Origin: a virus
Length of the DNA stretch: 31,413 nt
IMG/VR virus record: IMGVR_UViG_3300009326_000090
Span: 1 to 31,413 of that record
Direction: 5' to 3' (one strand)
Below, piece after piece: positions 6,009 through 31,057 of the stretch; within the stretch, counting starts at the first letter, position 1, and each line of letters begins with the position of its first letter. Position numbers and translations under genes: made by a program. The notes under the pieces are model-generated. The model had not been told where the DNA came from, ran no database searches, and saw only the letters and a list, made by a program, of their open reading frames with translations.

Positions 6009-6071
6009 TACAGCAGTCTCAGCGGTGAACCAACACGACACTGCGGAGACATTTTTATATCAGGAGGTAAA

Positions 6072-7953: not shown

Positions 7954-8058
7954 CAACCTAAACGACTGTAAAAACATAACCACATAGGAGTGACTAACAA
8001 TGAGTTTAGCAAACATAGACAACTACCCCTTGCTGAAAAGCAGGGTAAAAGCGCATCA
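7954..8058 (+). repeat. Direct repeat copy A: leader plus tag gene start
   Basis: This segment is nearly identical to 10644-10786. The left part (7954-7984) matches 10644-10674 exactly over 31 bases. The right part (7985-8058) matches 10713-10786 with four mismatches over 74 bases and covers the ribosome site and the first 20 codons of the tag gene. Copy A lacks the 38 bases present in copy B between these parts, which hold the promoter-like element. Confidence 0.95.
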
Positions 8059-11255: not shown

Positions 11256-11309
11256 AGAAAAAAAGACTCTGAGTGGTATAAAAGCATATAATCACAAGGA
11301 CAGATGTAA

Positions 11310-11720: not shown

Positions 11721-11731
11721 TGCCTGTTACA
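11703..11731 (+). terminator. Hairpin at gene end, possible terminator
   Basis: TGTAACAGG (11703-11711) and CCTGTTACA (11723-11731) form a perfect 9-base stem around an 11-base loop that contains the TAA stop of the coiled-coil gene. The downstream run ATATTGTTAG is not a proper U-tract, so termination is possible but weak. It marks the junction to the AT-rich methyltransferase and could also be a scar of insertion. Confidence 0.4.
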
Positions 11732-11776
11732 TATTGTTAGCATTAGTACGGATTATTAACGATAAAATTAAATAGA

Positions 11777-12262: not shown

Positions 12263-12277
12263 TATTAATGCTAACTA

Positions 12278-12451
12278 ATGAATAAACGAACTCCACCCGA
12301 AGTAGAGAGTATCGTGATCAAAAGCATATCACCGATACTAATCCCCCAGCCACTCTTGGGGACACTCACTGTTAAGATGACTTGGTGGAAGAAACTGATG
12401 TATAAACGTAAAATGAGGAAACAACATGAGCCAAGCAGAGACACCGATTAA
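12278..12451 (+). CDS. Small 57-residue protein of unknown function
   Basis: An open frame from ATG 12278 to TAA 12449-12451 fills the gap between the methyltransferase and the next gene, overlapping the latter by 26 bases. The peptide begins MNKRTPPEVESIVIKS, continues through a Pro/Leu-rich stretch and ends in a basic, Trp-containing part (KMTWWKKLMYKRKMRK). Codon use is like the native genes, which supports it. No clear ribosome site precedes the ATG. No family is recognised. Confidence 0.5.
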   Translation: MNKRTPPEVESIVIKSISPILIPQPLLGTLTVKMTWWKKLMYKRKMRKQHEPSRDTD

Positions 12452-12713: not shown

Positions 12714-13456
12714 TGCCCGGCAAAATGAATAAGCGAGATGAACATTTGTGGAACAAAGCAAAGGGAGTCGTGACAAAGCAGTACCCGAAAGTAGCAGAGG
12801 ACTCCGACCAGTATTGGAAGCTGGTACAGGGAGTGTACCAGAAAATGAAAGGCGGGAAATCTATGAGCGACAAGATAGATATGACAAAAGGAAAGGACAC
12901 CATGTTAGAAAATTACCCATTACTCAAATCAAGAGTAAAAGCGCACCAGAGAAGAACCAAGACAGGGAATATCGTGCAGGTTAAAGAACATCAGGACAGT
13001 AGGCAGAAAAAAGAACCACGCATTAAAAAACATGCCATCGGTACACATTTAGGTTACTACCATCCACGAGTTAAGGACATTCTGAACCCGATAGGACATA
13101 AAAAGCACAGAGATGCCCATCTGGAAGCACATGAAAAACAGAATAAACTGGCGAAAAAAGCCAGAGCGGAGGGGAAACATGACCTTGACCTTCATCATTC
13201 AGCGAAATCGGAATGGCATAAAGCACAGGCGGATGCACACGACGTGATGACAAACAAAAGATACCATCGAGGGGATATGGTGATGGGTGAGGATAAGGAT
13301 AAACGACACTTTGCAGGTTGGGGTTATGATAGACATAAAGAAATACTTAGTGACATCAGAGCCAGAATAACGGATAAAGACAAAACGAAAGTCGGCAAAA
13401 TCCAGCAGATGATGGCGAATGAGAAAAAGAAGCAGGGGGAAAAAACAAAGGAATGA
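12713..13456 (+). CDS. Tagged protein C, His/Lys-rich
   Basis: The 247-residue protein is coupled to the previous gene (TGATG). Residues about 10-46 (LWNKAKGVVTKQYPK...YWKLVQGVYQKMKGG) match a small helical module often seen in phage structural proteins. A second possible start, ATG 12904 (MLENYPLLKSRVKAH), mirrors the starts of proteins A and B. The tag VKAHQRRTKTGNIVQV lies at residues 75-97 (12935-13003). The remaining 150 residues are rich in His, Lys and Asp (for example HRDAHLEAHEKQNK) and unrecognised. It appears to be a fusion of the helical module with a tagged cargo protein. Confidence 0.75.
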   Translation: MPGKMNKRDEHLWNKAKGVVTKQYPKVAEDSDQYWKLVQGVYQKMKGGKSMSDKIDMTKGKDTMLENYPLLKSRVKAHQRRTKTGNIVQVKEHQDSRQKKEPRIKKHAIGTHLGYYHPRVKDILNPIGHKKHRDAHLEAHEKQNKLAKKARAEGKHDLDLHHSAKSEWHKAQADAHDVMTNKRYHRGDMVMGEDKDKRHFAGWGYDRHKEILSDIRARITDKDKTKVGKIQQMMANEKKKQGEKTKE

Positions 13457-13457
13457 G

Positions 13458-15209
13458 GTGATAGAATACCAGTATAACCTGAAAATGAAGGTGCAACGCC
13501 CCGGTAGCCGGGGTGGACAATTCTGGGTGGATGACAACGGAAATATCCGCTACGGTGCTATCCCCCTACGATATAGAGAAACCCTCCAACAGAGAGCCTT
13601 CCAGGAATGGTTTCACCGTGAAGTCATGGCAGGAAGGCTTCCTCGCATTAAAAAACCACAGGATGCAAAAAAAGTAAAGGAATGGTGGGAAAGCACATTG
13701 TGGGCGCAGGCTGCACGGGAGAGCCAACAGAAACTATTCAAAACCAAAAGTAAACTCGCACTTCTTCCGTCCAAAAAGAACCCAAGAGTGAAGCGGTGGC
13801 AGAGTGTCGCCATTGATCCCAAAGACTACAAGAAACACGGCATACAGGGGAAAGCTACCGATGCCTACCAATACCACGACCATCCCAAGTGGACACACGA
13901 ATGGCGGGATCCTAAAGACCGACTGATACGCCGACTAACCCCTGAGTACACAAAAGCGAATGCCATCCGGAAATTTAAGCGGGTAGAGAAAGCGATCAAG
14001 TACATACCGGAGTTGCGAACTGCCGTCCAGAAGGATGCTCGCTCTCGCAACGCCAGAAGACGAGTGCTGGCAATGGTGATCACCACACTCGACCAGACAG
14101 GCATGAGGGTAGGGACGGGACATCATCTAGAGCGATACGGCACATACGGAGCGACTACGCTGAACAAGGAGCACGTCACCGTCAAGGGTGACACCGTGAC
14201 ACTCACATACGTTGGTAAAAAAAACAAAGAGCAGAAACATACTGTTACCGATCCTACCTATGCCAGACAAATGCGCAAACTTCTTAAATCCGATGGTGAT
14301 AAAGTATTCGCATACACAGAACGAGGTAAAACAAAATCCATTACGGGAGAGGACGTAAACAACTACCTCAAAAGATACGGGATCACAGCAAAGGATATCC
14401 GCACCTTCAAAGCCAACGTAGTATTCACCTCCGCACTCAGGCGGATGGGGAAAGCAAAGAACGAGAAGCAGGCGAGGAAAAACATCACTGTGGCACTTGA
14501 TGAAGCTGCCAATCACCTCGGCAACACCCGGGACGTGTGTAAAAAAGATTATATAAGCCCTGAAATCCTGCAAGCCTACCTCGAAGGTAAACGGCTCAAC
14601 ACAAAGTACCTGCGAAAATCCATCACAACCGGATGGACGGCAGAAGAAAGGGAGTTCATCCGGCTTTGGTTGGGATTTAAAGACCCAAGAAGGAATGCCT
14701 ACAAATATGTTCCATATATAAACGAAAATATAATCCTTAAATCCCTCGCCTTCTCCGGACACAAACTGCAGGGACGCACCACATACGCCGGAATGAATAT
14801 ATCCATCGAAAACAAAGCTGGATCGTACAGGACAGGTAAAGACCCAGATGGACACAAATGGAAAACGAAGTTACATCAAGACTACGGTTACATCAGGGGA
14901 ACGGTAGGACACGACAAAGATCACGTAGACTGCTTCATTGGTAATGCCCCAGACTCACAGAAGGTTTATATCATCCACCAAAAGGACATCAAGACAGGAA
15001 AGTACGATGAAGACAAGGTCATGTTAGGCTGGAGCGATAAAAAAACGGCTGTGGTGGATTATTTAAAGAATTATGACCGTAAGGACATGCTGGGGAGCGT
15101 CACCACCATGACCATAGATCAATTCAAGAAAAAAGCATTTTCCAAAAAGTACAAAGGGAAAATGATTAAAGCCTTCGGCAAAAGTATAATTTACAGGCAC
15201 GCCGCATGA
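13458..15209 (+). CDS. DNA topoisomerase IB fused to pyrophosphatase-like domain
   Basis: The 583-residue protein (GTG 13458 with AAGGA just upstream; an upstream frame extends to 13419) begins with the RPGSRGGQFWVDDNGNIRYG motif. The topoisomerase IB core follows. It has RRVLAMVITTLDQTGMRVG with the catalytic Arg, TLTYVGKKNKEQKH with the Lys, ITAKDIRTFKANVVF with the second Arg, and NHLGNTRDVCKKDYISP with His and the Tyr nucleophile near residue 365. From about 434 to the end is an inorganic-pyrophosphatase-like domain of polyvalent proteins: GMNISIENKAGSYR, then GHDKDHVDCFIGN. It could relax incoming DNA; the pyrophosphatase-like part may be enzymatic or structural. The stop overlaps the next start. 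Confidence 0.9.
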   Translation: MIEYQYNLKMKVQRPGSRGGQFWVDDNGNIRYGAIPLRYRETLQQRAFQEWFHREVMAGRLPRIKKPQDAKKVKEWWESTLWAQAARESQQKLFKTKSKLALLPSKKNPRVKRWQSVAIDPKDYKKHGIQGKATDAYQYHDHPKWTHEWRDPKDRLIRRLTPEYTKANAIRKFKRVEKAIKYIPELRTAVQKDARSRNARRRVLAMVITTLDQTGMRVGTGHHLERYGTYGATTLNKEHVTVKGDTVTLTYVGKKNKEQKHTVTDPTYARQMRKLLKSDGDKVFAYTERGKTKSITGEDVNNYLKRYGITAKDIRTFKANVVFTSALRRMGKAKNEKQARKNITVALDEAANHLGNTRDVCKKDYISPEILQAYLEGKRLNTKYLRKSITTGWTAEEREFIRLWLGFKDPRRNAYKYVPYINENIILKSLAFSGHKLQGRTTYAGMNISIENKAGSYRTGKDPDGHKWKTKLHQDYGYIRGTVGHDKDHVDCFIGNAPDSQKVYIIHQKDIKTGKYDEDKVMLGWSDKKTAVVDYLKNYDRKDMLGSVTTMTIDQFKKKAFSKKYKGKMIKAFGKSIIYRHAA

Positions 15210-18200
15210 GATTATTAATGAAAGCGAAAATTAAACGCCCCGGATTACGAGGGGGGAAATATTGGATTGATAAAAAGGGAGAAGTCATTTACGGGGAAAA
15301 ACCGCACCCCAGAGCAAAGCAGGCGAGCCATGAACAAATAAGCAAGCACCACGCAAAAACCAAGACAAATCCGAAAACAAAAACAAATCCAAACACGAAA
15401 ATGATTGGAGGAAAGTCATTCGAATTTAAACAAAAAGGCAAAGAATGGCACGTATACCACGAAGGAAAACATATCGACACAATCCCGGAAGGTCTTGACA
15501 GCAACCAAAAGACTGAATATGTGAAGGAACGATCAGAGTATTGGCTGAAAATGCATGGGGAGAAAAAGAAACCAATAATGCATCCTACGAAATTTTACCG
15601 ATACGCTAAAAAAGGCGCAAAGGGTGATGCTGGCGAATGGGCATCAGCAGATAGTAAAGAATTAGCATCAGGACGGAAAGGACAGGAATTAAAAGAAATA
15701 AATTTCAAACCATCCGATAAAATATTATATATCAATGCAGAGGGCAATATAGGCGGTGCTGGTGAATATGGTTATTTATCACTAACAAGTGATCGTGAGC
15801 AAACCATTATAGAACACGCTATGGATATAGGGAGAATAGACGAAGATGATGGTTTATTGGTGATGGATATTATAGCCGCAATAAAAGCAAAACAATCAGG
15901 CTATGCAGGAATAGTCTATAAAGGAGGAGATAAAAACCAACACCACGCCCAAGATTTAAGAGAGCATACCGAAAAAGAATTAATAAACACGTTAGGAGAA
16001 TACTACGAAGATGCAAAACCATTCGCAGATAAATTTTTAACTGACAAAGTAACGCCAAAAGGGAAATTCATGATAAAAAAGAGCCTTTTAATTAAATCCC
16101 ACGTCAAAGCGTACCAACGACGGAGCAAATCAGGGAAAGTCGTCAACGTGAAGGCGCATGAGACCAAAGTAAGGAAAAAAGCGAAAACAGAGAATAAAGC
16201 ATGGGCGATGACGGTTGAAAAGTACTTTAATAAAAAACATAACATGCTTTCAGGATTAGTACAGGACATAAAAGAAGACATCTGGTACGCCAAAAAAGAG
16301 CTAAAGGGATTAGAGGCAGGACAGATGGGCGGATTTAAAGTATCAGCGAATCGCCGACAGAAAAAACTACTAAAAGAGCAGATAGAAGCCAGCAAGGGTA
16401 ATATCGCCAACTTAGAGAAAAAGCTGACGATCCATAAAAAGCATAAAGCCATTGTCAAAAAAGCATTAAAAGAGGGGAAACCAGTTCCTCAAAACGTCCT
16501 CAACGATTATCCAGAATTAGTGACCAAAAAGAACCGTCCAAAAGCCATCAGGTTTTTCGACGCATATAAAGAGAACGGCGCACCGTTAGAGGAAGACCCA
16601 TTCACAGGAAAACTGAAGCTGATGGGAAATCTAATGGATCATTCAATAATCTCAGATGAAACAGGACGCTATGTGCGATATGGTGCAGAACTTACCGATG
16701 GTCGGAAAGTATCGCTGGACGGCGTAATCCGTATAACCGATCCAGAACGCTGGGACAAAATAAAAGATATTATCGCAGGAAAGACAGGAGCAGATAAGAT
16801 CGCTCTCTATATTAAAAACTCCATGAAATCGAAAGACCTGAAACAAAGCATAAAAGATACATGGATCGATGCAGAGCAATCTGGATGGAAACAAAGGGAT
16901 ATAGGGACACAATCATTCGACAAATGGATAAAAGACGGCAGATACCTTATCGCAGGATTAACTCATCAGAAATTGCCTACGATGGATGGCATAATCAGTA
17001 TTGAAGCGGAATTACACGAAAACGCAGGAATTAAATTAAAAAAAGTCAAAGGATGGGTGACAAACAAAGTAAAAGCTAAAGCAGTAGCAAATGCCGTAGC
17101 TTATTACAATGAAAATAAGGAATGGTCAAAAAACATCGTAAAAGAGACAAAAGAAGACTTTATCGACAGGGAATCGAAAATCCCGAAAAACATGTCCATG
17201 ACATCAGCCGTTAATTACATCAAAAAATACTTCCCAGAAATTAAGGGATCGAGAATAAAGCTACGGCATAAATTAGAGCAAGAACTCAAATCAACGGGGA
17301 CAGGAAAAATGGGATACCAATCAAGCGGAGTTTACAGAAGTACAGGCGAACCCGGAAGCGGATCAATATCATATTCCAAATATAAGACTGAAGACATCGA
17401 TGAATGGATATACGACAACCTGTCACCAAAGCAAAAGGGAATGAGTAAATCCAAAATTAAGGCTCACATGAGACGCACAAAGACAGGGAAAATCGTAGCA
17501 GTCAGACAGCATGAGGACTCCCGAACCAAAAAACAGAAACCAGCATCAAAGAAAAAGCAAAACGTGGACTTATTCGGGAATCCGATTCAAGAAGCAAACA
17601 AAACCCCCCTCTCCGTAGCAAAAGAATTACAGATTCAGGACATCGAACCCGATCCAGACCAACCGAGAAAAGAATTTGATCAGGAAAAACTAAAAACGCT
17701 GGCTGACAGCATCAAAAAGATAGGGCTGATTCAGGACATCGCCGTCCGACCACACCCGACCAAAAAAGGTAAGTACATTATTATCGCTGGTGAGCGGCGA
17801 TACAGAGCGCATAAAATCGCAGGATTAACGCATGCCAGAACCAGAATCTACGATTTAGTCGATCCAAAGGACATCTTCGCCATCCAAGTCGCTGAAAATG
17901 TAGGCAGAAAGGATATGAATCCGATAGAGACGGCAACGGCATTCAAAAAATTATATGACGTAGGAATGCCCATAGAAGAAATAGCAAAAAAAGTAAGCGC
18001 AAAAGCCGTCACCGTCGAAAGGAAAATGCAACTCCTGAACCTTATTCCGGGATTACAGAAACACATTAAAGGAGGACACGTCTCGATCCATCAAGGCTGG
18101 ATGATAGCCAACGCCAAACTTTCCCCGGAACTCCAGCACAACGTCATGATCCGACTGAACGCTGGCAAAATATCCAACGAGGCACTTTCAGGCATGCTCG

Positions 18201-21200
18201 GAAAATACAAAGCAGGCATGAGTCAGACAGACATTTTTCAGACTCAGAAAGTAACACCCTCCGGACTCGAGAGACTCCACAAAAATACCGTGAGATCGTT
18301 AGAGCGAAAAGCCAACAACCTCGTCAAGGAAATCGGGAAGCTCCTGACGCAGATAAATGAACAGGGAGGTGAGAAGTTAATTCCCGCCATCACAAAAGAA
18401 CGTGGTAAGATGGAAGTGTACTCAGCCAAGCTGGACATCATTACCGAACAGATGATCAAGATCAAAAAGGAGATGGACAGGGCGAAAGCATTCTTTAATG
18501 CCGGTGGGACTGTATCGCAGTATCTCGATACCCGCAAGGTAGGTGAAGAAAACAAATGGGTCTTCGAAGGCGGGAAGCGTAAACGTAAGAAAGCGAAAAA
18601 ATCCCTCGTAAAACGCATACTGAAAGCGATAAGTGGGTATCAGAAACCGGATCACAAGTACATCAAGCGGGAAGGATCGCCTGGGAACTATAAGTATACC
18701 TATCCAAAAGAACCCGTGACCGAAGCCGATATTCTGCTGGACACCACGAACAACCCCAACGTCATGAGAGTGCTTTTCGACTTCAAATGGGGTGACATGG
18801 AGTGGGAGAAGACCAAAAAAGCAGTAGATCAGGCTGGGGGACGGTATTGGGATAAAACAAAAACATGGTACATCAAACGCCACAACATCCACAGACTCCA
18901 TGACCGACTCGACAAGATCGCAATCACATCAAAAGCTCGTAGACAAACAGGTACACCACCTCCGGAGAGAGGAACAAAAGGTGCTCCACCGAGATCAAAA
19001 TCCAAAATAGACATTAACAAAAAGAAATTCCACAGCGAATTTGCACTCATCCTGAATCAGTTCACTAAATGGCAAGAGCATAGAGAGTTACAGAGAAAAT
19101 TGGGAGAGCTTATAGGATGGGCTCGGCATAGACGTTTGAATTTATCAGAAGTCAATGATGCCAGAGACAAGTTTAAAGAGAAACACCGAAAACTCCTCGC
19201 CGAGGGGGAAAAACGTGGTGAACTCGTAAAAATGGACGGCAGATACTATGAGGTGAAAGAACCTGGCAAACTTGGCAGCACCAAGTGGTGGATAGACGAT
19301 AAAGGCAAGGTGCGCTATGGGGAACGACCTAAAAGCGCAAAGCACATCAAGAAAGAAGACCTCCACATATGGGATGCATATACTAAGGGATTGGAGATAG
19401 GATTACAAACCCAACATGAGGGGGAAATAAAATATAATAAAAAGCAGATAGAATCCATCGCAAAAGAGCACCTCGAGGATATCAAGGCAGAGAAGGGATC
19501 GGGAAGACTCAAAGTGTCTACCGTGACCAAGTCTGAGGGCGAATCTACCCTCGAGGATTATGCAGCCATCATCCAGTATGCCATAGATAACAAGTACCTG
19601 CGCATACCAACACGGGGAAAATACAAAGGGAAGGTATGCATAAATAAAAAGGAACTTAATACTCCACACAAACACAAAGCCGACAGCAAGCTGCGAGATA
19701 TATTCGGTAATCTAATACGCTGGGATAGGAATCTAAACAGAGAACCTCTCGCACCACCCGTGACAAAATGGAAAAAATGGGATTCACCGAGCCACTATGA
19801 AATCGAATTAAGCAAACTGATTAACGACTACAACGAGGGCAAGGGCGAGATGGTGATCCAGGCGATCTTTGCTAAAGAGACTACTGGTTCAAAAGACCTT
19901 TACGAGCAAATAGAGAAAATCCAGGCGAGAGCATCCGATATCGAGAAACACCGCAACAAAGCACTCAAGGCATTCAGCGACAAGACTCCACCAGAAATCA
20001 AGAGCATGAAAAAGGGTAAAAGTCTCTGGGCGCATCAAGCACAGTACGTGAACTGGATGATGGCAGTCAATAAGGGAATCGTGGGAGCGGACACCGCACT
20101 GGGCAAGACACTCATGGCACTGGGATATATAAAAAAAATGCAGGAGAACGGTAAGATAGACGGCGGACTGGCATTCCTCCCCGGCAGCGTCATGTACGGC
20201 TGGGAAGACGACCTCGATGAATTCTTTAAGGGAAGACCAAAGGTGCTGTACATCGAAGGGACACCGGAACAAAAGATGGCGAAGATCAAGACCATCGGTA
20301 AAAAGAAATACGACCTCGTCGTAGCATCACACGGACTGATTCAGGGTGACGGCAGGCTGCTAACTGAACTCATGAGACGCACTAAGAAGCACGCTGTCTT
20401 CTACGATGAATCGCACAAAGGACTGCTGAACACCCAGAACAACGTGTATAAGAATTTCCATAAGCATGTGAAACAGAAGTACCAGTTCCTTATGACAGCA
20501 ACCCCAGCGAGAAACGAACCGCTGGACATTATGCATATGAACAACCTGCTCCACCCCGGGCACATGGGCAACGCTGGAACATTCCATTCCAACTATTACG
20601 AGAAGATACAAGGCAGATGGCATCCAAAAGCCATCGCAATGGATGATATGTGGGATAAAGCGAGACCGTACATCCCCGTGATGAGCAAATATGCCGCTGG
20701 CGTCAAACTCCCCAAGCGAGTGGATTCCACACACCGACTATCGATGGGAGACCAGCAGAGGAAATACTACGAGGCAGCACAGAAGAATCTCATGAACGTA
20801 CTTCTCGATGTAGAGAACCCCGAAGCCATGAAACGCAGCGAGGTTGATCACATCTTCAAGATCATAGCCGAACTTCGCCTAACGTCCTTCGACCCCGTGA
20901 TGATCAACCCCAAGTATGCGGGGAAAAGCGTGACCTTCGAAAGAACCAGCGATATCATAGGTGACCACCTGCGTCTCGGGAAACACGGAATCGTCGTAGC
21001 CAGCGCATTTACGAAACCATTCGCCAAGTATGTCACACAACTGAAAAAAGAGCACAGACTTCTCGAAAGCGAAATAGCCGTGATCGATAAAGACACGAAA
21101 CCAAAAGAACGCCACGAAATCCAGAAACGCATGAACAGTGGTAAGGTCAAGGTGCTGCTCATGGGGATAGCTTCCGGTGGAGCAGGGATGAACCTGCAGA

Positions 21201-21556
21201 AGGGAGCCGACGCAATGGTGATTCTGTCCGATCCGTGGACATACGCCGATAAGAAACAAGCCGTAGACCGGATCATCAGACCGGGATCTGCCAGCGATAC
21301 CGTGTTCGTCCACGACTTCAGTCTCCCCCGTACCATAACCGACCTCGTGAGAGGCAAAATAGAGATCAAACAGACTATGCACGAAAAAGCAGACGTGGAA
21401 GGGACAGCTAAAGAAAAAATGGCAACATGGTCATTCAACGACTATCTCAAACTTGTAGGAATGACAAAAGAACAGTATGAAATTGCAAAAAAGAAAACAG
21501 CGAAGAAATCAATAACATTACCAAAAAACATAAGCTGGAGATACCAATGGACGTAG
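15206..21556 (+). CDS. Giant polyvalent protein with ParB and SNF2-type helicase domains
   Basis: This 2116-residue protein starts at an ATGA overlap. In order it has: an RPGLRGGKYWIDKKGEVIYG motif (residues 10-29); a possible ADP-ribosyltransferase-like part from about 132 (KFYRYAKKG, GEWASAD; uncertain); a tag at 300-323; an unrecognised region containing EGKPVPQNVLNDYPEL; a second tag at 751-773; a ParB domain at about 810-1000 (DPDQPRKEF, AGERRYRAH); HKYIKREGSPGNYKYTYP at about 1150; a HARP-like strand set near 1185-1225 (weak); a third-type motif STKWWIDDKGKVRYG near 1360; and a SNF2-type helicase from 1606. The helicase has TALGKT (motif I), YDESHKG (II), MTATPARN (III), GIASGGAGMNLQ (V) and QAVDRIIRPG (VI). 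It looks built by serial fusion and is probably delivered with the DNA. Confidence 0.88.
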   Translation: MRLLMKAKIKRPGLRGGKYWIDKKGEVIYGEKPHPRAKQASHEQISKHHAKTKTNPKTKTNPNTKMIGGKSFEFKQKGKEWHVYHEGKHIDTIPEGLDSNQKTEYVKERSEYWLKMHGEKKKPIMHPTKFYRYAKKGAKGDAGEWASADSKELASGRKGQELKEINFKPSDKILYINAEGNIGGAGEYGYLSLTSDREQTIIEHAMDIGRIDEDDGLLVMDIIAAIKAKQSGYAGIVYKGGDKNQHHAQDLREHTEKELINTLGEYYEDAKPFADKFLTDKVTPKGKFMIKKSLLIKSHVKAYQRRSKSGKVVNVKAHETKVRKKAKTENKAWAMTVEKYFNKKHNMLSGLVQDIKEDIWYAKKELKGLEAGQMGGFKVSANRRQKKLLKEQIEASKGNIANLEKKLTIHKKHKAIVKKALKEGKPVPQNVLNDYPELVTKKNRPKAIRFFDAYKENGAPLEEDPFTGKLKLMGNLMDHSIISDETGRYVRYGAELTDGRKVSLDGVIRITDPERWDKIKDIIAGKTGADKIALYIKNSMKSKDLKQSIKDTWIDAEQSGWKQRDIGTQSFDKWIKDGRYLIAGLTHQKLPTMDGIISIEAELHENAGIKLKKVKGWVTNKVKAKAVANAVAYYNENKEWSKNIVKETKEDFIDRESKIPKNMSMTSAVNYIKKYFPEIKGSRIKLRHKLEQELKSTGTGKMGYQSSGVYRSTGEPGSGSISYSKYKTEDIDEWIYDNLSPKQKGMSKSKIKAHMRRTKTGKIVAVRQHEDSRTKKQKPASKKKQNVDLFGNPIQEANKTPLSVAKELQIQDIEPDPDQPRKEFDQEKLKTLADSIKKIGLIQDIAVRPHPTKKGKYIIIAGERRYRAHKIAGLTHARTRIYDLVDPKDIFAIQVAENVGRKDMNPIETATAFKKLYDVGMPIEEIAKKVSAKAVTVERKMQLLNLIPGLQKHIKGGHVSIHQGWMIANAKLSPELQHNVMIRLNAGKISNEALSGMLGKYKAGMSQTDIFQTQKVTPSGLERLHKNTVRSLERKANNLVKEIGKLLTQINEQGGEKLIPAITKERGKMEVYSAKLDIITEQMIKIKKEMDRAKAFFNAGGTVSQYLDTRKVGEENKWVFEGGKRKRKKAKKSLVKRILKAISGYQKPDHKYIKREGSPGNYKYTYPKEPVTEADILLDTTNNPNVMRVLFDFKWGDMEWEKTKKAVDQAGGRYWDKTKTWYIKRHNIHRLHDRLDKIAITSKARRQTGTPPPERGTKGAPPRSKSKIDINKKKFHSEFALILNQFTKWQEHRELQRKLGELIGWARHRRLNLSEVNDARDKFKEKHRKLLAEGEKRGELVKMDGRYYEVKEPGKLGSTKWWIDDKGKVRYGERPKSAKHIKKEDLHIWDAYTKGLEIGLQTQHEGEIKYNKKQIESIAKEHLEDIKAEKGSGRLKVSTVTKSEGESTLEDYAAIIQYAIDNKYLRIPTRGKYKGKVCINKKELNTPHKHKADSKLRDIFGNLIRWDRNLNREPLAPPVTKWKKWDSPSHYEIELSKLINDYNEGKGEMVIQAIFAKETTGSKDLYEQIEKIQARASDIEKHRNKALKAFSDKTPPEIKSMKKGKSLWAHQAQYVNWMMAVNKGIVGADTALGKTLMALGYIKKMQENGKIDGGLAFLPGSVMYGWEDDLDEFFKGRPKVLYIEGTPEQKMAKIKTIGKKKYDLVVASHGLIQGDGRLLTELMRRTKKHAVFYDESHKGLLNTQNNVYKNFHKHVKQKYQFLMTATPARNEPLDIMHMNNLLHPGHMGNAGTFHSNYYEKIQGRWHPKAIAMDDMWDKARPYIPVMSKYAAGVKLPKRVDSTHRLSMGDQQRKYYEAAQKNLMNVLLDVENPEAMKRSEVDHIFKIIAELRLTSFDPVMINPKYAGKSVTFERTSDIIGDHLRLGKHGIVVASAFTKPFAKYVTQLKKEHRLLESEIAVIDKDTKPKERHEIQKRMNSGKVKVLLMGIASGGAGMNLQKGADAMVILSDPWTYADKKQAVDRIIRPGSASDTVFVHDFSLPRTITDLVRGKIEIKQTMHEKADVEGTAKEKMATWSFNDYLKLVGMTKEQYEIAKKKTAKKSITLPKNISWRYQWT
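16103..16174 (+). repeat. Internal tag copy in giant protein (first)
   Basis: This encodes VKAYQRRSKSGKVVNVKAH at residues 300-318. It follows an internal ATG at 16070 preceded by AAAAGGGAAATTC, which resembles a former gene start with its ribosome site. It separates the possible ADP-ribosyltransferase-like region from the following unrecognised region. Confidence 0.85.
17456..17524 (+). repeat. Internal tag copy in giant protein (second)
   Basis: This encodes IKAHMRRTKTGKIVAVRQH from residue 751, just before the ParB domain. An ATG at 17441 preceded by CAAAAGGGA resembles an old gene start. The 13 bases CAAAAGGGAATGA (17432-17444) recur at 7902-7914 in the tail of the portal gene. Confidence 0.88.
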
Positions 21557-21711
21557 ATAATGATAAAATGACAAAAGCTCAACTCAAGAGACTTCTCAAA
21601 TGGTACTCTACACCACCCTATAGGTTACGGCAGGACTGGGAGATAATCAGGAAACAGATGATTGCAGCCTGTAAGAGACATAAGGTTAAAATACCGGAGT
21701 GGCTGACATGA
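21547..21711 (+). CDS. Small basic protein of unknown function (54 residues)
   Basis: A frame from ATG 21547 overlaps the end of the giant gene by 10 bases and ends in TGA 21709-21711, which overlaps the ATG 21708 of the next gene. The peptide is basic and helical (KAQLKRLLKWYSTPPYRLRQDWEIIRKQ split by a Pro pair) with one cysteine. Filling the gap exactly and coupling at both ends make it a likely real gene. No family is recognised. A link between two large helicase proteins suggests a role in the same complex, but that is only positional. Confidence 0.65.
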   Translation: MDVDNDKMTKAQLKRLLKWYSTPPYRLRQDWEIIRKQMIAACKRHKVKIPEWLT

Positions 21712-24700
21712 GGGGACAGGTAAAGGCGCACATCAGACGCACCCCAGCAGGCAGAATAGTAGCAATCCCGACACACAGTCGCAGTAATCAGTTTAAACTC
21801 CGCAGTAAGCGGATAAACGATGGAATTAAACACCATCAGAAGACCTCAGACGGTATAACTACCTCACAAGAGTGCCGACAGCACCTCGCACTGGCACGTA
21901 AGCGATATAGGGATACGGCACACGCCATCTGGATCAAGCCACGACTTGCACCCTCAGATGACCGGATGCGCATGTGGACAGTATACGCCAAGAGCGACTG
22001 GACACCCGCACTCAAAAAAGAATACAAGAGTTTCTGGACGGAAGTCGTAGACATCTACAAAAAAAGACTTTCACAATTGCAGACACAGAAATCATTCGCC
22101 GTCCAGCCAAACGAACAGTATCACATACTGCGAGACAGAACCTGCAGCGAAGGAGAATTCTACCTCCAGCACCCCAAGACTCAGAAGACCTGTAAGTGTC
22201 TGGTCAGGAAAGGACTCAAGCTTAGAAAAAGCTGGTCGAGCAAAATGCAGGGGAAGTACGCTGGCTCACGGTGGGTGACAATAACCGACCCATCGTCACC
22301 ACTGAAAGGACGACATATCCTGATCGTCCCGCATAAGGACGGCACAGCATCGATAGCCTGGGCTCCCTCACACTCCGGGCTGACCCACAAAATCCTCCAG
22401 CCCAAAGAGAAAAAAGCGAAGGATCAGGTAAAGCCGAAGGAGAAAGAAAAGAAGAAAATAAAGGAACTGAGTGAGGAGCAGCACGAAAAATTTACGACCC
22501 AAAAGAGAGAGCTTATCTCGCAAAAACAAAAACAGAAACAGAAACTCCACGAAATGATCCGTGAGAAGGTGGGCGTTGAAACCACTGTGACCAAAGAAGA
22601 AAAGAAAGAAATCGAGGAAAAAGTCTCTAAGGTCGAGAAAGAAAAACAGCCCATAGAGCGACTGAAAGAGTACAACAAAATCCAAAACAAGCGAAAAGAA
22701 GCACTCAACAGCATCATCAGTGAAGCCAAGAACGTGATGCTTGGAGACGAGACCACTCCACCGGAACAGCTATCCGCACAGCAGAAAAACATACGAGAAG
22801 CGATAAAAGAGAACGCTGAAGACTTCCTCAAAAGCTGGTATACCATCAAGGGTACGGAACGGGAGCTGCGAACTATCAATAAATTCCTCAAGACAGGAAA
22901 CGTTACTCGAGCCGGATCGGACATCGTAGAGATGGAGACCATCACCACAGACGATCTGATGAAAACCCTGCAGAACGAGAAAGCGGTAGAATCAGAAATC
23001 GATGCGCACTACAACCTGATTATCAATACCAGGGGCGGTATTGACAGAGACGGGAATGAAATCTCAGGCAAAGGGACTGGCAGTCTGGTTATGCAGAGAC
23101 ATATCGCCACAGGCGCACTGGAGGCAATAACCGGACTGACCGGAGAAATGGCTGGGACGAGCATGATAGATGCCGACATCGCCAAAGAACTGGGATCTGC
23201 CAACGTCGCTGTGCTGGCGGACTACTACCTCGAGAATACCGCCGGAAGTGACTATGGCAAACGGATGGAAAAAATACGGGACTATATCGAAACTAAAGGC
23301 AGCAAGATCGCACAGGAAGCGATGGCAAAAGGTGACAAGTATATCGAGATGGCACAACGGGTACGCCAGCATGCGAAAGGCGAGAAGTCACTCTACGGTT
23401 CAGTCCAGCAGGGAACGGCAGCCAGCCTCGCCTACACGAACCGAGCTTACGAAGCCTACGGACAGGCAGAGGGGGCACTCAATCAGGTAGCAGAAATGCT
23501 CCACCAGTTTGAAGTGAAAAAGGAGATGATGGTAATTAAAGCCACTAATCGACCCGCACTAAACCGTAAACTCAAGCGACTTGGACTGAACAAATCAGAC
23601 ACTTCTATCGTAAGACATGGGTATGGCGATTACGAACTCCGCATACCCAAGCGATCATTCGAGAAGCTCATTGAGGAACGAGTGATAGCCCAGTTTAAGA
23701 CTGTCGCCAAAGAACCGACACCAGAGAGCATTATTGCAGGCAGGGAAAACACCGACCACTTCCAGCCCTCCATGATCAAAACACACCTCGCTCCTGACGC
23801 TGACGGGAACATGCAGCGCATCATACCCACCGAAGCCCAACAGTCGGCAGCACGGCTCGTAGGCATGCAGAAGAAAGTGTATCTCAACTGGGAGGCTGGA
23901 ACCGGAAAGAGCCTCGCATATTTAGAGGCGATCTCACAAGCATCAGACAAGGCGGGAAAACCACTCAAGACCATCATCTCCATGCCGAAAAAGCTCATGG
24001 GAAACTTCCGAGAGGAAGTGGAGAAGTTCACGAACTACAAAGTGGAAATAGTAAGTGGGGATAAAAAATCACGGGTAGAAAAATACAAAAAAGACCCGAA
24101 CACAATTGTAGTTATCAATAAAGAAAAATACAGAAAAGACCAAGATTATGAAGAAATAAAAAACGCCGGGTTTGACATGATAATAGCCGATGAAGCCCAC
24201 AAGATAACCCAACGCAGCGATACCGGGAGTAAGGGAAGCATGATGAGTCATGGACTGGCTGAGATAGCAAAACAATCCGAGTACTTTATAGCCGGAACGG
24301 GTACACCCACACCCAACAACCTGTCTGAACTCTACTTCCACCTCAACATTATGGATCCCGATAAGTACTCCTCGCAAAAGGCATTCATGGATAAATACAA
24401 GCACCTCCACAAAGGAGCTGGCTTGAAAGAGAAACTTGCACAAATTATGAATGCCGAACTGTCCGACAGGGTAATGACTCAGAAAAAAGATGCTAAAAAT
24501 AAGTTCTTTGAAAACATACATCGTGTAGACCTGACCGACAAACAACGCAAGGAGTACAAGAATACACAGAAACGATTCCGTGAAGGAAAAATTTTGGGCA
24601 TCACCCGTGACCAGCTACTGACCAGTGTGCTGAACAGCACGCACCACAGCGAGAACAACAAGTACGCTAAAATGAAAAATATCATAGACCATCACCTGAA

Positions 24701-25268
24701 AACAAAAGGCGATTCCGAGAAAGTGCTAATCTACGCCAAGAATTACGAGACAGTGCGAATGATAGAGGATTTTCTCAAAACGCAATATCCTGATCAAGCA
24801 ATCAGATTTACTGGGCAGAATAAAAAAGGGAGTGATATGAGTATCAAGCAAATAGCTTCCAATAAAAATAAATATTTGACCGACGGCAAAGTCAAGTTCG
24901 CCATCCACACGGATGCTGGAACTGAGGGGCTAAACCTCCAGCACACCGGAGAGAAAGACAGACCTTACGGAGCGACCACAGTGATAGCGATGGCATCCGG
25001 TATGCATAGCTACTCCGTTCTTGACCAGTTTTTCTCCAGAGCCAATCGCAAGGGAGCCACAAAAGACGTACATGGGCACCTTATCTTAACCGACAGCCCG
25101 CATGATATGGCAACGGAGGAGCGACTCGGTGACAAGCGGACTATTATGAACCTCATCCATAACGGCAAAGTACGTGATGAGAACGGCGTACTTGGGACAC
25201 CAGCGAGTAAGAGCATATTCCTCAAGAGTATACGAATGAAAAGGAAGATATTATGGGCAGCAGCGTAA
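21708..25268 (+). CDS. Second tagged polyvalent protein with SNF2-type helicase
   Basis: The start is taken as ATG 21708 (GGAG at 21696-21699, ATGA overlap), giving 1186 residues; a GTG at 21699 is an alternative. Residues 5-25 are the tag VKAHIRRTPAGRIVAI. Near residues 180-235 there is a further strand-rich module (GSRWVTITDPSSPLKGRH then ILIVPHKDGTASIAWAP) of the kind seen in other polyvalent proteins. A long Lys/Glu coiled coil covers about 235-330. The helicase starts near 715: NWEAGTGKSLAYLEA (motif I), MIIADEAHKI (II, near 827), AGTGTPTPNN (III), HTDAGTEGLNLQH (V, near 1068) and QFFSRANRKG (VI). It is distinct from the helicase of the giant protein, so two translocases are encoded in a row. 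Confidence 0.88.
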   Translation: MRGQVKAHIRRTPAGRIVAIPTHSRSNQFKLRSKRINDGIKHHQKTSDGITTSQECRQHLALARKRYRDTAHAIWIKPRLAPSDDRMRMWTVYAKSDWTPALKKEYKSFWTEVVDIYKKRLSQLQTQKSFAVQPNEQYHILRDRTCSEGEFYLQHPKTQKTCKCLVRKGLKLRKSWSSKMQGKYAGSRWVTITDPSSPLKGRHILIVPHKDGTASIAWAPSHSGLTHKILQPKEKKAKDQVKPKEKEKKKIKELSEEQHEKFTTQKRELISQKQKQKQKLHEMIREKVGVETTVTKEEKKEIEEKVSKVEKEKQPIERLKEYNKIQNKRKEALNSIISEAKNVMLGDETTPPEQLSAQQKNIREAIKENAEDFLKSWYTIKGTERELRTINKFLKTGNVTRAGSDIVEMETITTDDLMKTLQNEKAVESEIDAHYNLIINTRGGIDRDGNEISGKGTGSLVMQRHIATGALEAITGLTGEMAGTSMIDADIAKELGSANVAVLADYYLENTAGSDYGKRMEKIRDYIETKGSKIAQEAMAKGDKYIEMAQRVRQHAKGEKSLYGSVQQGTAASLAYTNRAYEAYGQAEGALNQVAEMLHQFEVKKEMMVIKATNRPALNRKLKRLGLNKSDTSIVRHGYGDYELRIPKRSFEKLIEERVIAQFKTVAKEPTPESIIAGRENTDHFQPSMIKTHLAPDADGNMQRIIPTEAQQSAARLVGMQKKVYLNWEAGTGKSLAYLEAISQASDKAGKPLKTIISMPKKLMGNFREEVEKFTNYKVEIVSGDKKSRVEKYKKDPNTIVVINKEKYRKDQDYEEIKNAGFDMIIADEAHKITQRSDTGSKGSMMSHGLAEIAKQSEYFIAGTGTPTPNNLSELYFHLNIMDPDKYSSQKAFMDKYKHLHKGAGLKEKLAQIMNAELSDRVMTQKKDAKNKFFENIHRVDLTDKQRKEYKNTQKRFREGKILGITRDQLLTSVLNSTHHSENNKYAKMKNIIDHHLKTKGDSEKVLIYAKNYETVRMIEDFLKTQYPDQAIRFTGQNKKGSDMSIKQIASNKNKYLTDGKVKFAIHTDAGTEGLNLQHTGEKDRPYGATTVIAMASGMHSYSVLDQFFSRANRKGATKDVHGHLILTDSPHDMATEERLGDKRTIMNLIHNGKVRDENGVLGTPASKSIFLKSIRMKRKILWAAA

Positions 25269-25534
25269 CAGCAAAATTAGCAAAGCGTCTCGATGTATGT
25301 GATAAACTCCATACCGAGAACATCGAGACATTAAAGAGACTGAAAAAAGAAGCATCAACTAAATTCGATGGTACTAATCGTCATATCAGACGGTTGAAAA
25401 AACAGCTTGACAGAGACCCCGAGAATAAAAAGTTGCAGAAAGAATATGCGGCAATGGTGAATGCAAGAGCCATGTACTATGCGGCGCATCAACTCAACGA
25501 CGGATTACTGGAGAAAGCAAATGAACGGAGTTAA
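25253..25534 (+). CDS. Small coiled-coil protein of unknown function
   Basis: The 93-residue protein overlaps the helicase gene by 16 bases, with GGAAG before ATG 25253. It is highly charged and helical: LHTENIETLKRLKKEAS, then a run IRRLKKQLDRDPENKKLQKEY that fits a coiled coil, and an Ala/Asn-rich last part. It overlaps the next gene's start. Helper or adapter roles are possible, but nothing in it is diagnostic. Confidence 0.75.
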   Translation: MGSSVTAKLAKRLDVCDKLHTENIETLKRLKKEASTKFDGTNRHIRRLKKQLDRDPENKKLQKEYAAMVNARAMYYAAHQLNDGLLEKANERS

Positions 25535-25775
25535 TATATTTGGAAATTGTAGGAGGTGCAGAGAAAAGGTAGTACGACGTTATCGATATGACCGTCAACG
25601 ATACTTTATCAAAGCGATACCGATTATGAGTCTCGATGGCAACGTGAGGTACCTCTGTTCCCAATGCAAAGCAGAAATCATAGTGGATAAAAAAGTACTC
25701 AAAAATATAAGAAAACTTAGTAATGCGATTAACACTACCAGGATACACAATAATCCAAAAAGCAGAAAAATCTAA
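25521..25775 (+). CDS. Small zinc-ribbon-like protein
   Basis: ATG 25521 follows GGAG at the proper spacing and overlaps the preceding gene. The 84-residue protein has two CxxC pairs: GNCRRCREK near residue 10 and YLCSQCKAE near 45, with a basic Arg/Tyr stretch between them (VVRRYRYDRQRYF). This is the pattern of a zinc ribbon that binds nucleic acid or protein. It lies directly before the sigma-like gene, overlapping its start by 53 bases, so a role in transcription is plausible but inferred. Confidence 0.75.
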   Translation: MNGVNIFGNCRRCREKVVRRYRYDRQRYFIKAIPIMSLDGNVRYLCSQCKAEIIVDKKVLKNIRKLSNAINTTRIHNNPKSRKI

Positions 25776-26961
25776 AACTATCCAGGTAAGAGGGCACGTC
25801 CGCCGGGGTAAGCCTGTCAAACCACACCCACGTGTCGTAACCGGGTTCAGAAAAGTGGACTTCCACGTGCTGCATGATATCAATAGCGAAATCGAGAAGA
25901 ACATTGCCTACCTCGTTTATATCGCAAAAGTGATAAGCAACAGTCACGGAATACCCATCCAATTCGAGAGCGGACAGCCAACAGGTTGTACCGCCGACCT
26001 GTTCGCCGAAGGACGCATGGGAATGCTCTTAGGCGGAATCGAGTGGGAGAACCGAAAAGATAAGAAATTAAGAAGATTCATCCAGATGAAGACAAGGGCG
26101 AGGTTAAACATGCTCAAGATGGCAAAAAAATTATCATCACAAATTAAGAGACCCCGGGACTTCCACATCCATTACAGCATTATTAACAATATGATTGAGA
26201 AACTAACGCAAGAAAAAGGTGGTTATCCCCCCACGCCAGAGGACGTAGCAGACAAGATAACATTGATGAAACGTACCAGGGATGGAAGACGAGAACTCAA
26301 TTATACAGAACGGCTACAAAAAGTATACGAGATAGCCAAGTATGGCAGTCGCTACGAGATGAATACCGATTGGGAAATAATGGGGGATAGAGACATAGGG
26401 ATGTGGACGGAAAGGACAATCGAGGAGAGACAACTTCAGAGGGACGTGAGAAGGGTACTAAGCGGACTATTAGATCAAGGGATACTTTCTCCTGAACAGT
26501 ACGAGGTCATTAAAAAACGTTATTACTTAGGTAATAAGCAATTGCCGAAAAACCCACGCACCTTCCAGCGTATTGCCGACATGATATGGGATGAAAACAA
26601 ACCGAGACAGGTGCGAAAAAAGGTAGGAGATTTTTATCGTTATACACCGAAAAGCAAAAAGGGGAAGAAATATAAAACCCCCGTTTATACGCAGATCACA
26701 AAAGTGATAAAAAAGCCAAAAGCTTATTTCCTCGTAAAGATGAGGACAAGTGACAAACAGAAACGAATAGAAGGGTTACCACCCTTTCGCAAGAGAGTAA
26801 AAGTCCCCACTGTCCATAACGTAATCGAGACACACGCCAATGCCGTTGAGATTATCAAACCATACCTTGAGTATCTCATACCACTGCTGAAAAAATCTGT
26901 AGTTGAGAAAAATCGTATAGCCGAATGGATCGGCAAAGACATAAAATTATTTACTGAGTAA
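25723..26961 (+). CDS. Tagged sigma-70-like RNA polymerase factor
   Basis: The 412-residue protein has the order of a sigma factor. Residues about 90-140 (TADLFAEGRMGMLLGGIEWE, then KKLRRFIQMKTRARLNML) resemble region 2. IEKLTQEKGGYPPTPEDVADKI, near 170-191, resembles region 3. ERQLQRDVRRVLSGLLDQGILS with PEQYEVIKKRYYLG, and then RTFQRIADMIWDENKPRQVRKKV, near 238-305, resemble region 4 with its helix-turn-helix. Residues 22-37 hold a short tag, VRGHVRRGKPVKPHPR (25786-25833). The C-terminal 100 residues are not recognised. It may redirect host polymerase to phage promoters, and the tag suggests delivery with the DNA. The ATG at 25723 has a weak ribosome site. The family call rests on reading motifs only. 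Confidence 0.68.
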   Translation: MRLTLPGYTIIQKAEKSKTIQVRGHVRRGKPVKPHPRVVTGFRKVDFHVLHDINSEIEKNIAYLVYIAKVISNSHGIPIQFESGQPTGCTADLFAEGRMGMLLGGIEWENRKDKKLRRFIQMKTRARLNMLKMAKKLSSQIKRPRDFHIHYSIINNMIEKLTQEKGGYPPTPEDVADKITLMKRTRDGRRELNYTERLQKVYEIAKYGSRYEMNTDWEIMGDRDIGMWTERTIEERQLQRDVRRVLSGLLDQGILSPEQYEVIKKRYYLGNKQLPKNPRTFQRIADMIWDENKPRQVRKKVGDFYRYTPKSKKGKKYKTPVYTQITKVIKKPKAYFLVKMRTSDKQKRIEGLPPFRKRVKVPTVHNVIETHANAVEIIKPYLEYLIPLLKKSVVEKNRIAEWIGKDIKLFTE

Positions 26962-27026: not shown

Positions 27027-27032
27027 CAAAAT

Positions 27033-27098
27033 GACTGTGAATACATGATCTCAGATGTTGGAGGTATAGTAATAGTGAGGGGAGGGACAGCCTCCTCC
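27033..27098 (+). promoter_or_regulatory. Promoter-like repeat element, copy 2, with leader hairpin
   Basis: GACTGT (27033) and TATAGT (27065-27070) are 26 bases apart, with the core GTTGGAGGTATAGT starting at 27057 and running to TAATAGTGA at 27078. A hairpin follows: GGGGAGG (27079-27085), loop GACAG, CCTCCTC (27091-27097). Element and hairpin are nearly repeated at 31013. The CCTCC strand resembles the anti-Shine-Dalgarno sequence, so the hairpin might influence ribosome loading or RNA stability. The next gene starts at 27227. Confidence 0.6.
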
Positions 27099-27226: not shown

Positions 27227-27472
27227 ATGCCTGATTATAAAATCCGAGTAATTCAATATCACGAGCATGAAAGAACTTTCTATGTTAAAGCAAAGAATAA
27301 AACAGAAGCAAGGAAGAAATTCAAAGAAGATGATTGGGATGACAGTTGTGTCCGGTCAGTCCGGTTATTGCCTCCAGTGCGCCTGTGTGGATGGGATGAT
27401 GGGAGCGATGGTTGGACAGGTATAATTAGAACTGTCATAAAAAAAGTTGAATTATATAATAAAAGGAGATAA
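27227..27472 (+). CDS. Unknown 81-residue protein
   Basis: The start at ATG 27227 is set by GGAAGGAG upstream; the frame is open back to 27128, but that part lies within the hairpin and is unlikely to be translated. The N-terminal half (KIRVIQYHEHERTFYVKAKN then KTEARKKFKED) looks like a small beta-beta-alpha fold seen in many phage orphan proteins. The second half has a Gly/Asp-rich loop and ends in a basic tail. It is the first gene of a run of small unknown genes and would be controlled by the leader structures before it. Confidence 0.75.
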   Translation: MPDYKIRVIQYHEHERTFYVKAKNKTEARKKFKEDDWDDSCVRSVRLLPPVRLCGWDDGSDGWTGIIRTVIKKVELYNKRR

Positions 27473-27506: not shown

Positions 27507-27881
27507 ATGAACCTAAACAAAAGCGACAACCAGAAAATAAACAAAACAGTCAAGATAGGTAACAATATCGTTAGCAGGTACAACATCATCGATACGAGCT
27601 TAATCGTCTACGAAGCCTACGAACCGACCATGCCATTCATGTTCGAGAATCGACCATCGTTCAGAAACCATGCAACCTTCATGGAATTCGGTGGCAGGTA
27701 CTACGGTAGGATTGGGACTCGCAGAACTAACGACCATGAAGATCAATACGCAAGAGCGTACCAGCTAATCAATGACGCATTCCCGGAAACGGTGAGTGAG
27801 GGGCGACGGTCACACGGGGAAATCACAATCATAATCGATAAATTCCTCTATGATTGTTTTCTTGATGCGGAGGTAACGTAA
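27507..27881 (+). CDS. Unknown 124-residue protein
   Basis: ATG 27507 follows AAAGGAGG. The protein has strands around IVSRYNIIDTSLIVYEAYEP, a central FMEFGGRYYGRIG segment, and a C-terminal helix with IIIDKFLYDCFLDAEV. It seems a compact alpha/beta protein. Its TAA overlaps the next ATG by one base. No family is recognised. It lies in a run of small genes typical of phage early or host-takeover regions. Confidence 0.75.
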   Translation: MNLNKSDNQKINKTVKIGNNIVSRYNIIDTSLIVYEAYEPTMPFMFENRPSFRNHATFMEFGGRYYGRIGTRRTNDHEDQYARAYQLINDAFPETVSEGRRSHGEITIIIDKFLYDCFLDAEVT

Positions 27882-28128: not shown

Positions 28129-28641
28129 ATGAGCGAGAATGACATTATCAAGAAAACAATCATAGAGGAATTTATCGATGTACCTACGGGTGAACTGGCG
28201 CATATGCTGGGGGTAGATTACAGCATTGCAGAAACGCTACAGTTACATGCAGTCGATGGGATTAACAAACCAGCACACCCCTACGAGCTTTGGTCAACTG
28301 GTATCACCATGAAAGCAGAAATCGATGAGATGGGAACAATGTGGATGGCAGTAGCAGAAGTCCAAGACCAGTATTTTGCGGATGGCAAGGCTGTCTCATT
28401 GGAACTTAAAAGCAGATACTGGCGTGAAGACATCGCTGAAGCTATCGATAACGTTCTGGAAGTAGCTAAACAGATTGGAGTAGAATGGGGTAGTAGCGCA
28501 CAGGATAAACCCCATATCTATTATTATGGGGACGGCGAGGATCCCGACAATCTGCCACCGCAAGGATGGAAATACGCACTCAAAGAGCAGTGTGATCGGA
28601 TCGGCTGGAAGTTCCCCTACGAGACAGAGGAGGAACAATAG
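28129..28641 (+). CDS. Unknown 170-residue protein
   Basis: ATG 28129 follows GAGGAGG. The protein starts with a helical segment (IIKKTIIEEFIDVPTGELAHML). It continues with strands in MTMWMAVAEVQDQY-like context and ends acidic, through a DGEDPDNLPPQGWKYALKEQ region. No catalytic motif is apparent. Its stop codon overlaps a GTG that may start a 19-residue leader peptide coupling it to the next gene. Confidence 0.75.
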   Translation: MSENDIIKKTIIEEFIDVPTGELAHMLGVDYSIAETLQLHAVDGINKPAHPYELWSTGITMKAEIDEMGTMWMAVAEVQDQYFADGKAVSLELKSRYWREDIAEAIDNVLEVAKQIGVEWGSSAQDKPHIYYYGDGEDPDNLPPQGWKYALKEQCDRIGWKFPYETEEEQ

Positions 28642-28700: not shown

Positions 28701-29266
28701 GAACTCAATACTCAAAAGAAAAGAAACTCAACATTTTCAAGAACTTCGCCAATCAACATAATGATACTTACCCCATGCTGACTAATCTGGTATGGCATTT
28801 ACTCTTCAATCAACCTGACCGTGACTGTGCTTGTGTTCCACTAAGCGATGGTATCGGACTGGTCGATGCTGGCACCCGAGGCTATACCAGGGCTGGATTA
28901 TTTTCCAACGATTACAAACAGAACTGTGACCTCGCCGACGAGATCAATGAAAAGGTCTTGGGAGTCGGTGAAATAGTAGCTGCCGGAATGGTTGCGGCGA
29001 GCATGAGAGAAGGACCCGTCACCGTTGCTTCAATCAAGGCAGTACTTAGAACACTCGTCAACATTTGGAGCGAATACACCGGGGACATCTTCGCCGAGAA
29101 GATACTCGGATCATCCTGGAAGAAAAATGCGAAACTGGACGACTACTGTGTGGAGAAATTCAGACAGTTCCAGAACAACACCCTCAGCTTCATAAACAAC
29201 GCAGATGACTCACGGCTGACACTCCTGGCAAAGACAATCATAGAGGAAATGACTGTGAATTCATGA
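28697..29266 (+). CDS. Unknown 189-residue protein
   Basis: ATG 28697 follows TAGGAGAGG. The protein appears mainly helical. It has a Cys-containing centre (RDCACVPLSD), a Gly/Val-rich helix (KVLGVGEIVAAGMVAASM) and a long C-terminal helical part with several Asn. No recognised family. The last codons overlap the GACTGT box of the promoter-like element at 29251, so transcription of the next gene may start inside or just after this gene. Confidence 0.75.
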   Translation: MRTQYSKEKKLNIFKNFANQHNDTYPMLTNLVWHLLFNQPDRDCACVPLSDGIGLVDAGTRGYTRAGLFSNDYKQNCDLADEINEKVLGVGEIVAAGMVAASMREGPVTVASIKAVLRTLVNIWSEYTGDIFAEKILGSSWKKNAKLDDYCVEKFRQFQNNTLSFINNADDSRLTLLAKTIIEEMTVNS

Positions 29267-29296
29267 ACTGTGATGTTGGATGTATAGTATTAGTGA
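29251..29296 (+). promoter_or_regulatory. Promoter-like repeat element, copy 3
   Basis: GACTGT (29251) and TATAGT (29283-29288) are 26 bases apart; the core GTTGGATGTATAGT runs from 29275 to TATTAGTGA at 29296. The bases between, GAATTCATGA, resemble GAATACATGA of copy 2. The leader after it (AAGGGCATGACGACCATCA) shows only a weak relic of the hairpin of copies 2 and 4. The next ATG is at 29339. Confidence 0.55.
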
Positions 29297-30972: not shown

Positions 30973-31012
30973 GATTATTGACGACTAAGAATGCGAATAC
31001 ATAGTTTATGAG

Positions 31013-31057
31013 GTTGGAGGTATAGTGATAGTGAGGGGAGGACAGCCTCCTCCTCCA
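31013..31057 (+). promoter_or_regulatory. Promoter-like repeat element, copy 4, with leader hairpin
   Basis: The core GTTGGAGGTATAGT begins at 31013 and ends with GATAGTGA at 31034. It is followed by GGGGAGG (31035-31041), loop ACAG and CCTCCTCC, then CATCACATAA. Apart from small length changes this repeats 27057-27106. Upstream GAATACAT matches copy 2, though GACTGT is replaced. The ATPase gene begins at 31085. Confidence 0.6.

Follow-up and report, generated by a model that had tools for sequence, protein, structure and literature searches.

The window analysed here, by which we mean the whole stretch of DNA under study, is a virus record of 31,413 bases and is probably a fragment of a tailed-phage genome. 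It carries a terminase gene (3845-5956) whose distant tblastn matches are Streptomyces phage terminases, a portal gene (5979-7952) that matches the PHROG portal family and, distantly, the portals of SPO1-like phages and of Bordetella phage PHB04, and a gene for a MuF-like minor head protein (9389-10651). The product of 13419-15209 holds topoisomerase IB and InPase domains and that of 15206-21556 holds ParB and SNF2 domains, within a gene run of the polyvalent type described in PMC5512222. The same run includes, on the plus strand, the gene for a tagged SNF2-type helicase (21699-25268), which lies upstream of the gene of main concern here: an ORF at 25723-26961, also on the plus strand, that starts with ATG and encodes a sigma-70-like protein of 412 residues (P0001). 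This region of the window also holds inverted repeats. One, of 42 nt and 95% complementary, pairs 23103-23144 in the helicase gene with 27351-27392, which falls in a small ORF downstream of the sigma gene, and may be a recombination scar or an assembly artefact; the other is a perfect 33-nt repeat with its arms 280 nt apart (27834-27866 and 28147-28179) and a partial copy at 29231-29248.

Searches with the window protein as a single sequence (Pfam, PHROGs, NCBIfam, PDB, phages, viral contigs and species genomes) returned nothing useful. One relative, in L011 (15227-16525; 36% identity, E 3.4e-45), was reached via records matched by the InPase neighbour, and another, in L054 (9971-11293, which is 11056-12378 of a related 101.5-kb contig), was then reached via the alignment. 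Both relatives are 35-37% identical to the window protein and both are syntenic; scans with two- and three-row alignments found no fourth member, and the family alignment consists of these three proteins. Because two relatives exist, the ORF is a genuine gene.

The original prediction had described this gene as the last large one of the polyvalent block, which is true for the window, L011 and L054 alike. In all three the sigma-like gene shares its neighbourhood with polyvalent genes and with packaging, portal and MuF genes, and the local order is the same: an SNF2 helicase (52-54% mutual identity among the three phages), an ORF of about 100 residues, a zinc-ribbon ORF and then the sigma-like ORF. 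The small zinc-ribbon ORF (CxxC...CxxC), at 25523-25775 on the plus strand of the window and at the equivalent place in L011 (about 15013-15240) and L054 (9739-9984), overlaps the start of the sigma gene in three out of three cases, and its product could act together with the sigma factor or regulate it. Each junction along this chain is an overlap, both in the window (25268/25253, 25534/25523 and 25775/25723) and in the L054 contig (10563/10550, 10852/10824 and 11069/11056). Since the sigma gene overlaps the chain of small ORFs behind the helicase, it is probably made together with the cargo, and this arrangement of the genes suggests co-expression with it.

Sequence and predicted fold of the sigma-like protein

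The protein had originally been called sigma-like, a description which is now backed by profile comparison, by a weak Pfam match on one relative and by structure searches whose leading matches are sigma factors, so that the product of 25723-26961 is very probably a divergent sigma-70-family factor. When the three-row alignment was compared by hhalign with E. coli RpoD, RpoS, RpoH and FliA, residues 55-179 aligned with RpoD 378-487 (E 2.3e-3), covering regions 2.1 to 3.1. Against a set of 190 single proteins, E. coli RpoD ranked first (E 2.7e-4, score 38.8, with the runner-up at 25.4) through a match of residues 141-270 to RpoD 450-566; RpoH ranked fourth and RpoS sixth, and neither FliA nor RpoE was prominent in this ranking. 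The two matched stretches are collinear with RpoD, and regions 2, 3/linker and 4 keep its order. Among curated profiles (Pfam, NCBIfam and PHROGs) none matches the window protein above its cut-off, and the Pfam Sigma70_r4 match on the L054 relative (E 0.0071) is likewise below it, at 16.3 bits against a cut-off of 24.1.

The region 2-like part, which both hhalign and the structure models indicate, comprises residues 55-145 (25885-26157, plus strand). Within it D92 L93 ..E96 G97 ..G100 matches DLIQEGNIG of RpoD region 2.2, and these five residues of the core-binding signature D L x x E G x x G, which correspond to RpoD D403, L404, E407, G408 and G411, are invariant in all three proteins; D403, L404, G408 and G411 are also invariant across the E. 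coli sigma set. The region 3-like part (residues 141-180; 26143-26262, plus strand) aligns IKRPRDF...PPTPEDVADKI with IRIPVHM...EPTPEELAERM of RpoD, and the region 4-like part (residues 232-306; 26416-26640, plus strand), seen by hhalign and in the Sigma70_r4 match on L054, would by analogy be the reader of the -35 sequence. Behind it lies a C-terminal extension (26665-26958, plus strand) that is absent from RpoD and partly conserved among the relatives, and for which the low-confidence model predicts a small beta unit and helices. The Trp dyad of the housekeeping region 2.3 is absent, the corresponding stretch RRFIQMKTRARLNML (KFMQMKTRAKQRMR in L054) having no Trp. Group 3 and 4 sigma factors are likewise variable at the aromatic positions of region 2.3, and the absence of Trp therefore counts only against a housekeeping type.

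AlphaFold models were of low confidence, with a mean pLDDT of 53 for the window protein and 58 for the L054 core, which is why TM-scores were poor (about 0.15-0.25). The Foldseek matches were nevertheless sigma factors: the first 21 matches of the window model in the PDB and, for the L054 core, 50 of the 50 matches listed (best E 4.5e-4, prob 1.00), whilst phage sigma factors lead the viral list, including those of Vibrio phage Kuja and Bacillus phage Eldridge. We consider it very likely that the window protein has a sigma fold.

The N-terminal tag and related modules

Residues 22-37 of the sigma-like protein, VRGHVRRGKPVKPHPR (25786-25833, plus strand), form an N-terminal tag that is evident from the alignment and from a tag profile. 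V22, H25, R27, G29, K30, P31, V32 and R37 are invariant in the three relatives (V..H.R.GKPV....R), which is to say that 8 of the 16 tag positions are invariant in the three-protein alignment, compared with 0 of the following 19; the linker between the tag and the sigma core is unconserved. A conserved block beside a stretch free of invariant positions is the strongest evidence that the tag is a selected unit. In the window the tag V.A(H/Y).RR..(S/T)GK.V.V..H, represented by VKAHQRRTKTGKIVQVREH, marks six further ORFs or domain units; compared with these, the sigma protein has a shorter version of the helicase tag, with a differing motif. Scored with a profile of the other tags it reaches E 0.64, below inclusion, and its relatives 0.044 and 1.3; shuffles of the same residues attained the tag score in 14 of 2832 cases for the window protein and in 0 of 2812 and 10 of 2710 for the relatives (p about 0.005 or less each). 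The closest likeness is to HVGAHVRKDGTVVKPHIR, with which one of the polyvalent proteins of Bordetella phage PHB04 starts. The proposal that this protein carries the same kind of tag as the helicases thus stands in that a tag-like block is present and conserved in three relatives, but needs qualifying in that it is a shortened variant of only moderate profile similarity.

Tags are also found inside long fused proteins, ahead of successive domains, and since they precede internal domains they may be modules of domain units rather than packaging signals; a role in packaging would be one interpretation of their distribution. Searches by tblastn with 28-residue tags gave weak matches only. One of these is in the cultured Bacteroides phage BS162P1 (L078 7787-8482), at about residues 6-25 of a 231-residue ORF which lies a few genes ahead of terminase-like and portal-like genes, as assigned by reading. 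Besides the H/R tag there are two further module types, RPG.RGG..W.D..G...YG and (K)PGHKY..R.G.PGHY.Y.Y, which also stand ahead of domain units; their sites are the N terminus of the 15206-21556 product and the vicinity of its residue 1400, the N terminus of the 13419-15209 product and, outside the window, the ParB starts at L011 8175 and L054 4611. At the other end of the proteins, K(S/A) plus a hydrophobic residue occurs within the last 30 residues of 11 of 17 cargo proteins, the sigma-like protein included, against 13 of 119 others, a count over the tagged proteins of the window, L011 and the L054 contig for a motif that was chosen post hoc; it is possible that this is a site for a maturation protease.

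Promoter-like elements behind the sigma gene

A repeat search of the window revealed a 54-nt repeat at 10650, 27029, 29247 and 30985, and this contains a two-block promoter-like element, of which the window has four copies and the L054 contig six. Element 1 (27031-27078), just behind the sigma gene, consists of an upstream block, ATGACTGTGAATACATGA, and a core, GTTGGAGGTATAGTAATAGTGA; the core has a TATAGT-type -10 sequence and the upstream block is at the -35 position. Element 2 lies at 29249-29296 and element 3 (30987-31034) ahead of a GHKL-ATPase-like ORF, whilst element 4 (10652-10699) precedes a tagged ORF of the polyvalent block. Element 4 is also found in L002, and in L004 and L005 its core is conserved before a tagged ORF. 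A matrix built from the four window sites scores 64-80 at those sites, which are the same ones that trained it, against at most 8.4 in ten shuffles. The recurrence of the core, GTTGGATGTATAGTATTAGTGA, in the L054 contig, with four close copies in the whole 101.5 kb, is an independent result. The six sites there, at 12523, 14552, 17046, 19250, 21700 and 58832, combine the core with an upstream block GTTCACACAGTCTC(A/G)TTTGTAG, and a scan of the contig with six mismatches allowed gave one further match, where shuffles gave 0-3.

All ten elements, those of the window lying on its plus strand, are oriented with the genes, and eight of them follow the sigma gene at a distance of no more than about 10 kb; five of the six in the L054 contig do so, lying less than 10 kb behind the gene at 11056-12378, and the sixth heads a gene of phrog_13782, to which no function is assigned. 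Two promoter-gene pairs are syntenic between the window and L054, namely that of the element nearest to the sigma gene on its downstream side and that of the GHKL-ATPase-like gene (31085 in the window, 21771 in the contig, and named by reading the sequence). A hairpin is present at the expected transcript start in three elements (z -2.4 to -3.2). Of the terminase, portal, protease and capsid genes that were mapped, none has an element directly in front of it, though read-through could still reach the protease (24714) and capsid (26404) genes of the L054 contig. The core is common to the two phages and the upstream block differs between them, the two blocks showing an apparent reverse-complement likeness. 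A separate feature near element 4 is a 137-nt duplication (82%; 7968-8104 and 10696-10832) associated with two ORFs that have the same tagged start, MSLANIDNYPLLKSRVKAHQRRTKTGKI; its first copy has kept the upstream promoter block and lacks the core. The idea that the phage begins transcription at promoters of its own gains unforeseen support from this conserved two-block promoter-like element, which in both of the diverged phages makes its first appearance immediately after the sigma gene.

Proposed virion delivery and competing readings

The sigma-like fold, the conserved tag, the conserved operon position and the conserved promoter-like elements could be joined in one scheme, which we regard as evenly balanced between being right and wrong. 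In this scheme a large tailed phage encodes a divergent initiation factor of the sigma-70 family that would be made from the gene run yielding the tagged polyvalent proteins, be packaged with them via its N-terminal tag and enter the host together with the DNA. The injected sigma would then bind the host RNA polymerase core and initiate at phage promoters comprising the core and the block at the -35 position; these promoters would stand before the operons of small genes downstream of the sigma gene and before one gene of the recombination/replication region. The 101.5-kb contig was found to lack a multisubunit RNA polymerase, and it would therefore be the host core that serves. The pairing of sigma and elements is a candidate one, proposed because of their position and co-conservation, and early use of the elements is suggested by gene type alone. 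If the elements are this sigma's promoters and head early or middle operons, a factor made with late cargo would have to come in with the DNA to act on them from the outset. Virion delivery of the sigma is thus plausible, and we tentatively put forward, at a little short of an even chance, that a head-packed, tagged and injected sigma redirects the host polymerase to dedicated promoters at once, without a virion polymerase. Overall, the original observation is confirmed and its interpretation is partly supported.

A conventional sigma switch comes close to a virion-borne sigma in likelihood. The factor would in that case be made after infection and turn the host RNA polymerase to middle or late phage promoters, with the tag a vestige or a domain-unit module that has no role in packaging, and we give this appreciable weight whilst thinking it somewhat improbable. 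It matches the published accounts of phage sigma factors that we consulted: group 2 jumbo phages all encode sigma factors thought to recruit the host RNA polymerase (PMC7824862), and the sigma gene of Listeria phage CKA15 peaks mid-infection, consistent with a late-gene switch (PMC12282133). Sigma peptides were detected in particles of fRuSau02 and judged non-structural by the authors (PMC5618024). The position of element 4 at the head of a tagged cargo ORF fits late expression, and the protease and capsid genes may be reached by transcripts that start at the last element of the cluster. However, the gene overlaps the ORF chain of the cargo helicase instead of lying in an early or middle operon, the tag has been kept although the adjoining linker has diverged, and the mapped virion structural genes have no element directly in front of them.

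The elements themselves could instead be promoters at which the host sigma acts with the help of an activator from the phage, or they could be sites of processing or attachment, which we think unlikely. TATAGT differs from TATAAT by one base, such -10-like sequences (TATAGT/TATGGT) could be read by a host sigma with an activator, and a shared core with a differing upstream block would suit such an arrangement. Yet a plain sigma-70 promoter scan finds the region no richer than shuffles, whereas the strict core GTTGG..GTATAGTA..AGTG and the -35-position block are found again and again a short way ahead of ORFs, with the same layout and orientation, and some elements have a hairpin at the expected start. 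Less likely again, and in our view distinctly improbable, is a sigma-fold protein with no part in initiation, such as a DNA- or polymerase-binding virion protein that blocks the host sigma or anchors the genome. The missing Trp dyad, the scores of all Pfam and NCBIfam sigma families below cut-off and the additional C-terminal part would be in keeping with this, but regions 2, 3 and 4 are collinear with those of RpoD, the core-binding DLxxEGxxG is intact, and promoter-like elements lie directly behind the gene in two phages.

Phages are known to deliver complete RNA polymerases into the cell, or enzymes that modify the polymerase of the host, and injection of the specificity subunit alone, if true, would be a cheaper route to the same end. 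The idea lends itself to direct testing in vitro even without a cultured phage, given the gene, the tag and the small group of candidate promoters. Our searches of the open-access literature turned up no established instance of a sigma factor being injected, and for the P-SS2 sigma factors the published table of particle peptides records zero (PMC2784084). Iyer et al. (2017; PMC5512222) proposed that polyvalent proteins jump-start transcription, and as the word "sigma" is absent from their text, a sigma factor is not among the cargo they describe.

The preferred reading, a packaged and injected sigma, has points of contact with several known systems. The window protein resembles the sigma-70-family factors of phages such as Kuja and Eldridge in its predicted sigma fold, in presumably borrowing the host core (the L054 contig being without a multisubunit polymerase) and in the promoter-like elements nearby; it differs in lying beyond the reach of the sequence libraries used, in its N-terminal tag and C-terminal extension, and in that its gene ends a polyvalent cargo run. 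With the polyvalent systems (PMC5512222) it shares a gene run with SNF2, ParB, InPase and other polyvalent domains behind portal and MuF and, in a shortened form, the type of tag that precedes those domains, although it is a single sigma unit and not a multi-domain fusion. The capsid targeting sequences of T4 (PMC9026906) are short N-terminal sequences common to internal head proteins whose mature parts are unrelated, and by analogy of layout the tags may have a head-loading role, albeit that they are longer and occur internally too. The virion RNA polymerases N4 gp50 and phiKZ vRNAP have the same proposed aim, immediate transcription from a particle-borne protein, but here only the specificity subunit would be carried and the host core would catalyse.
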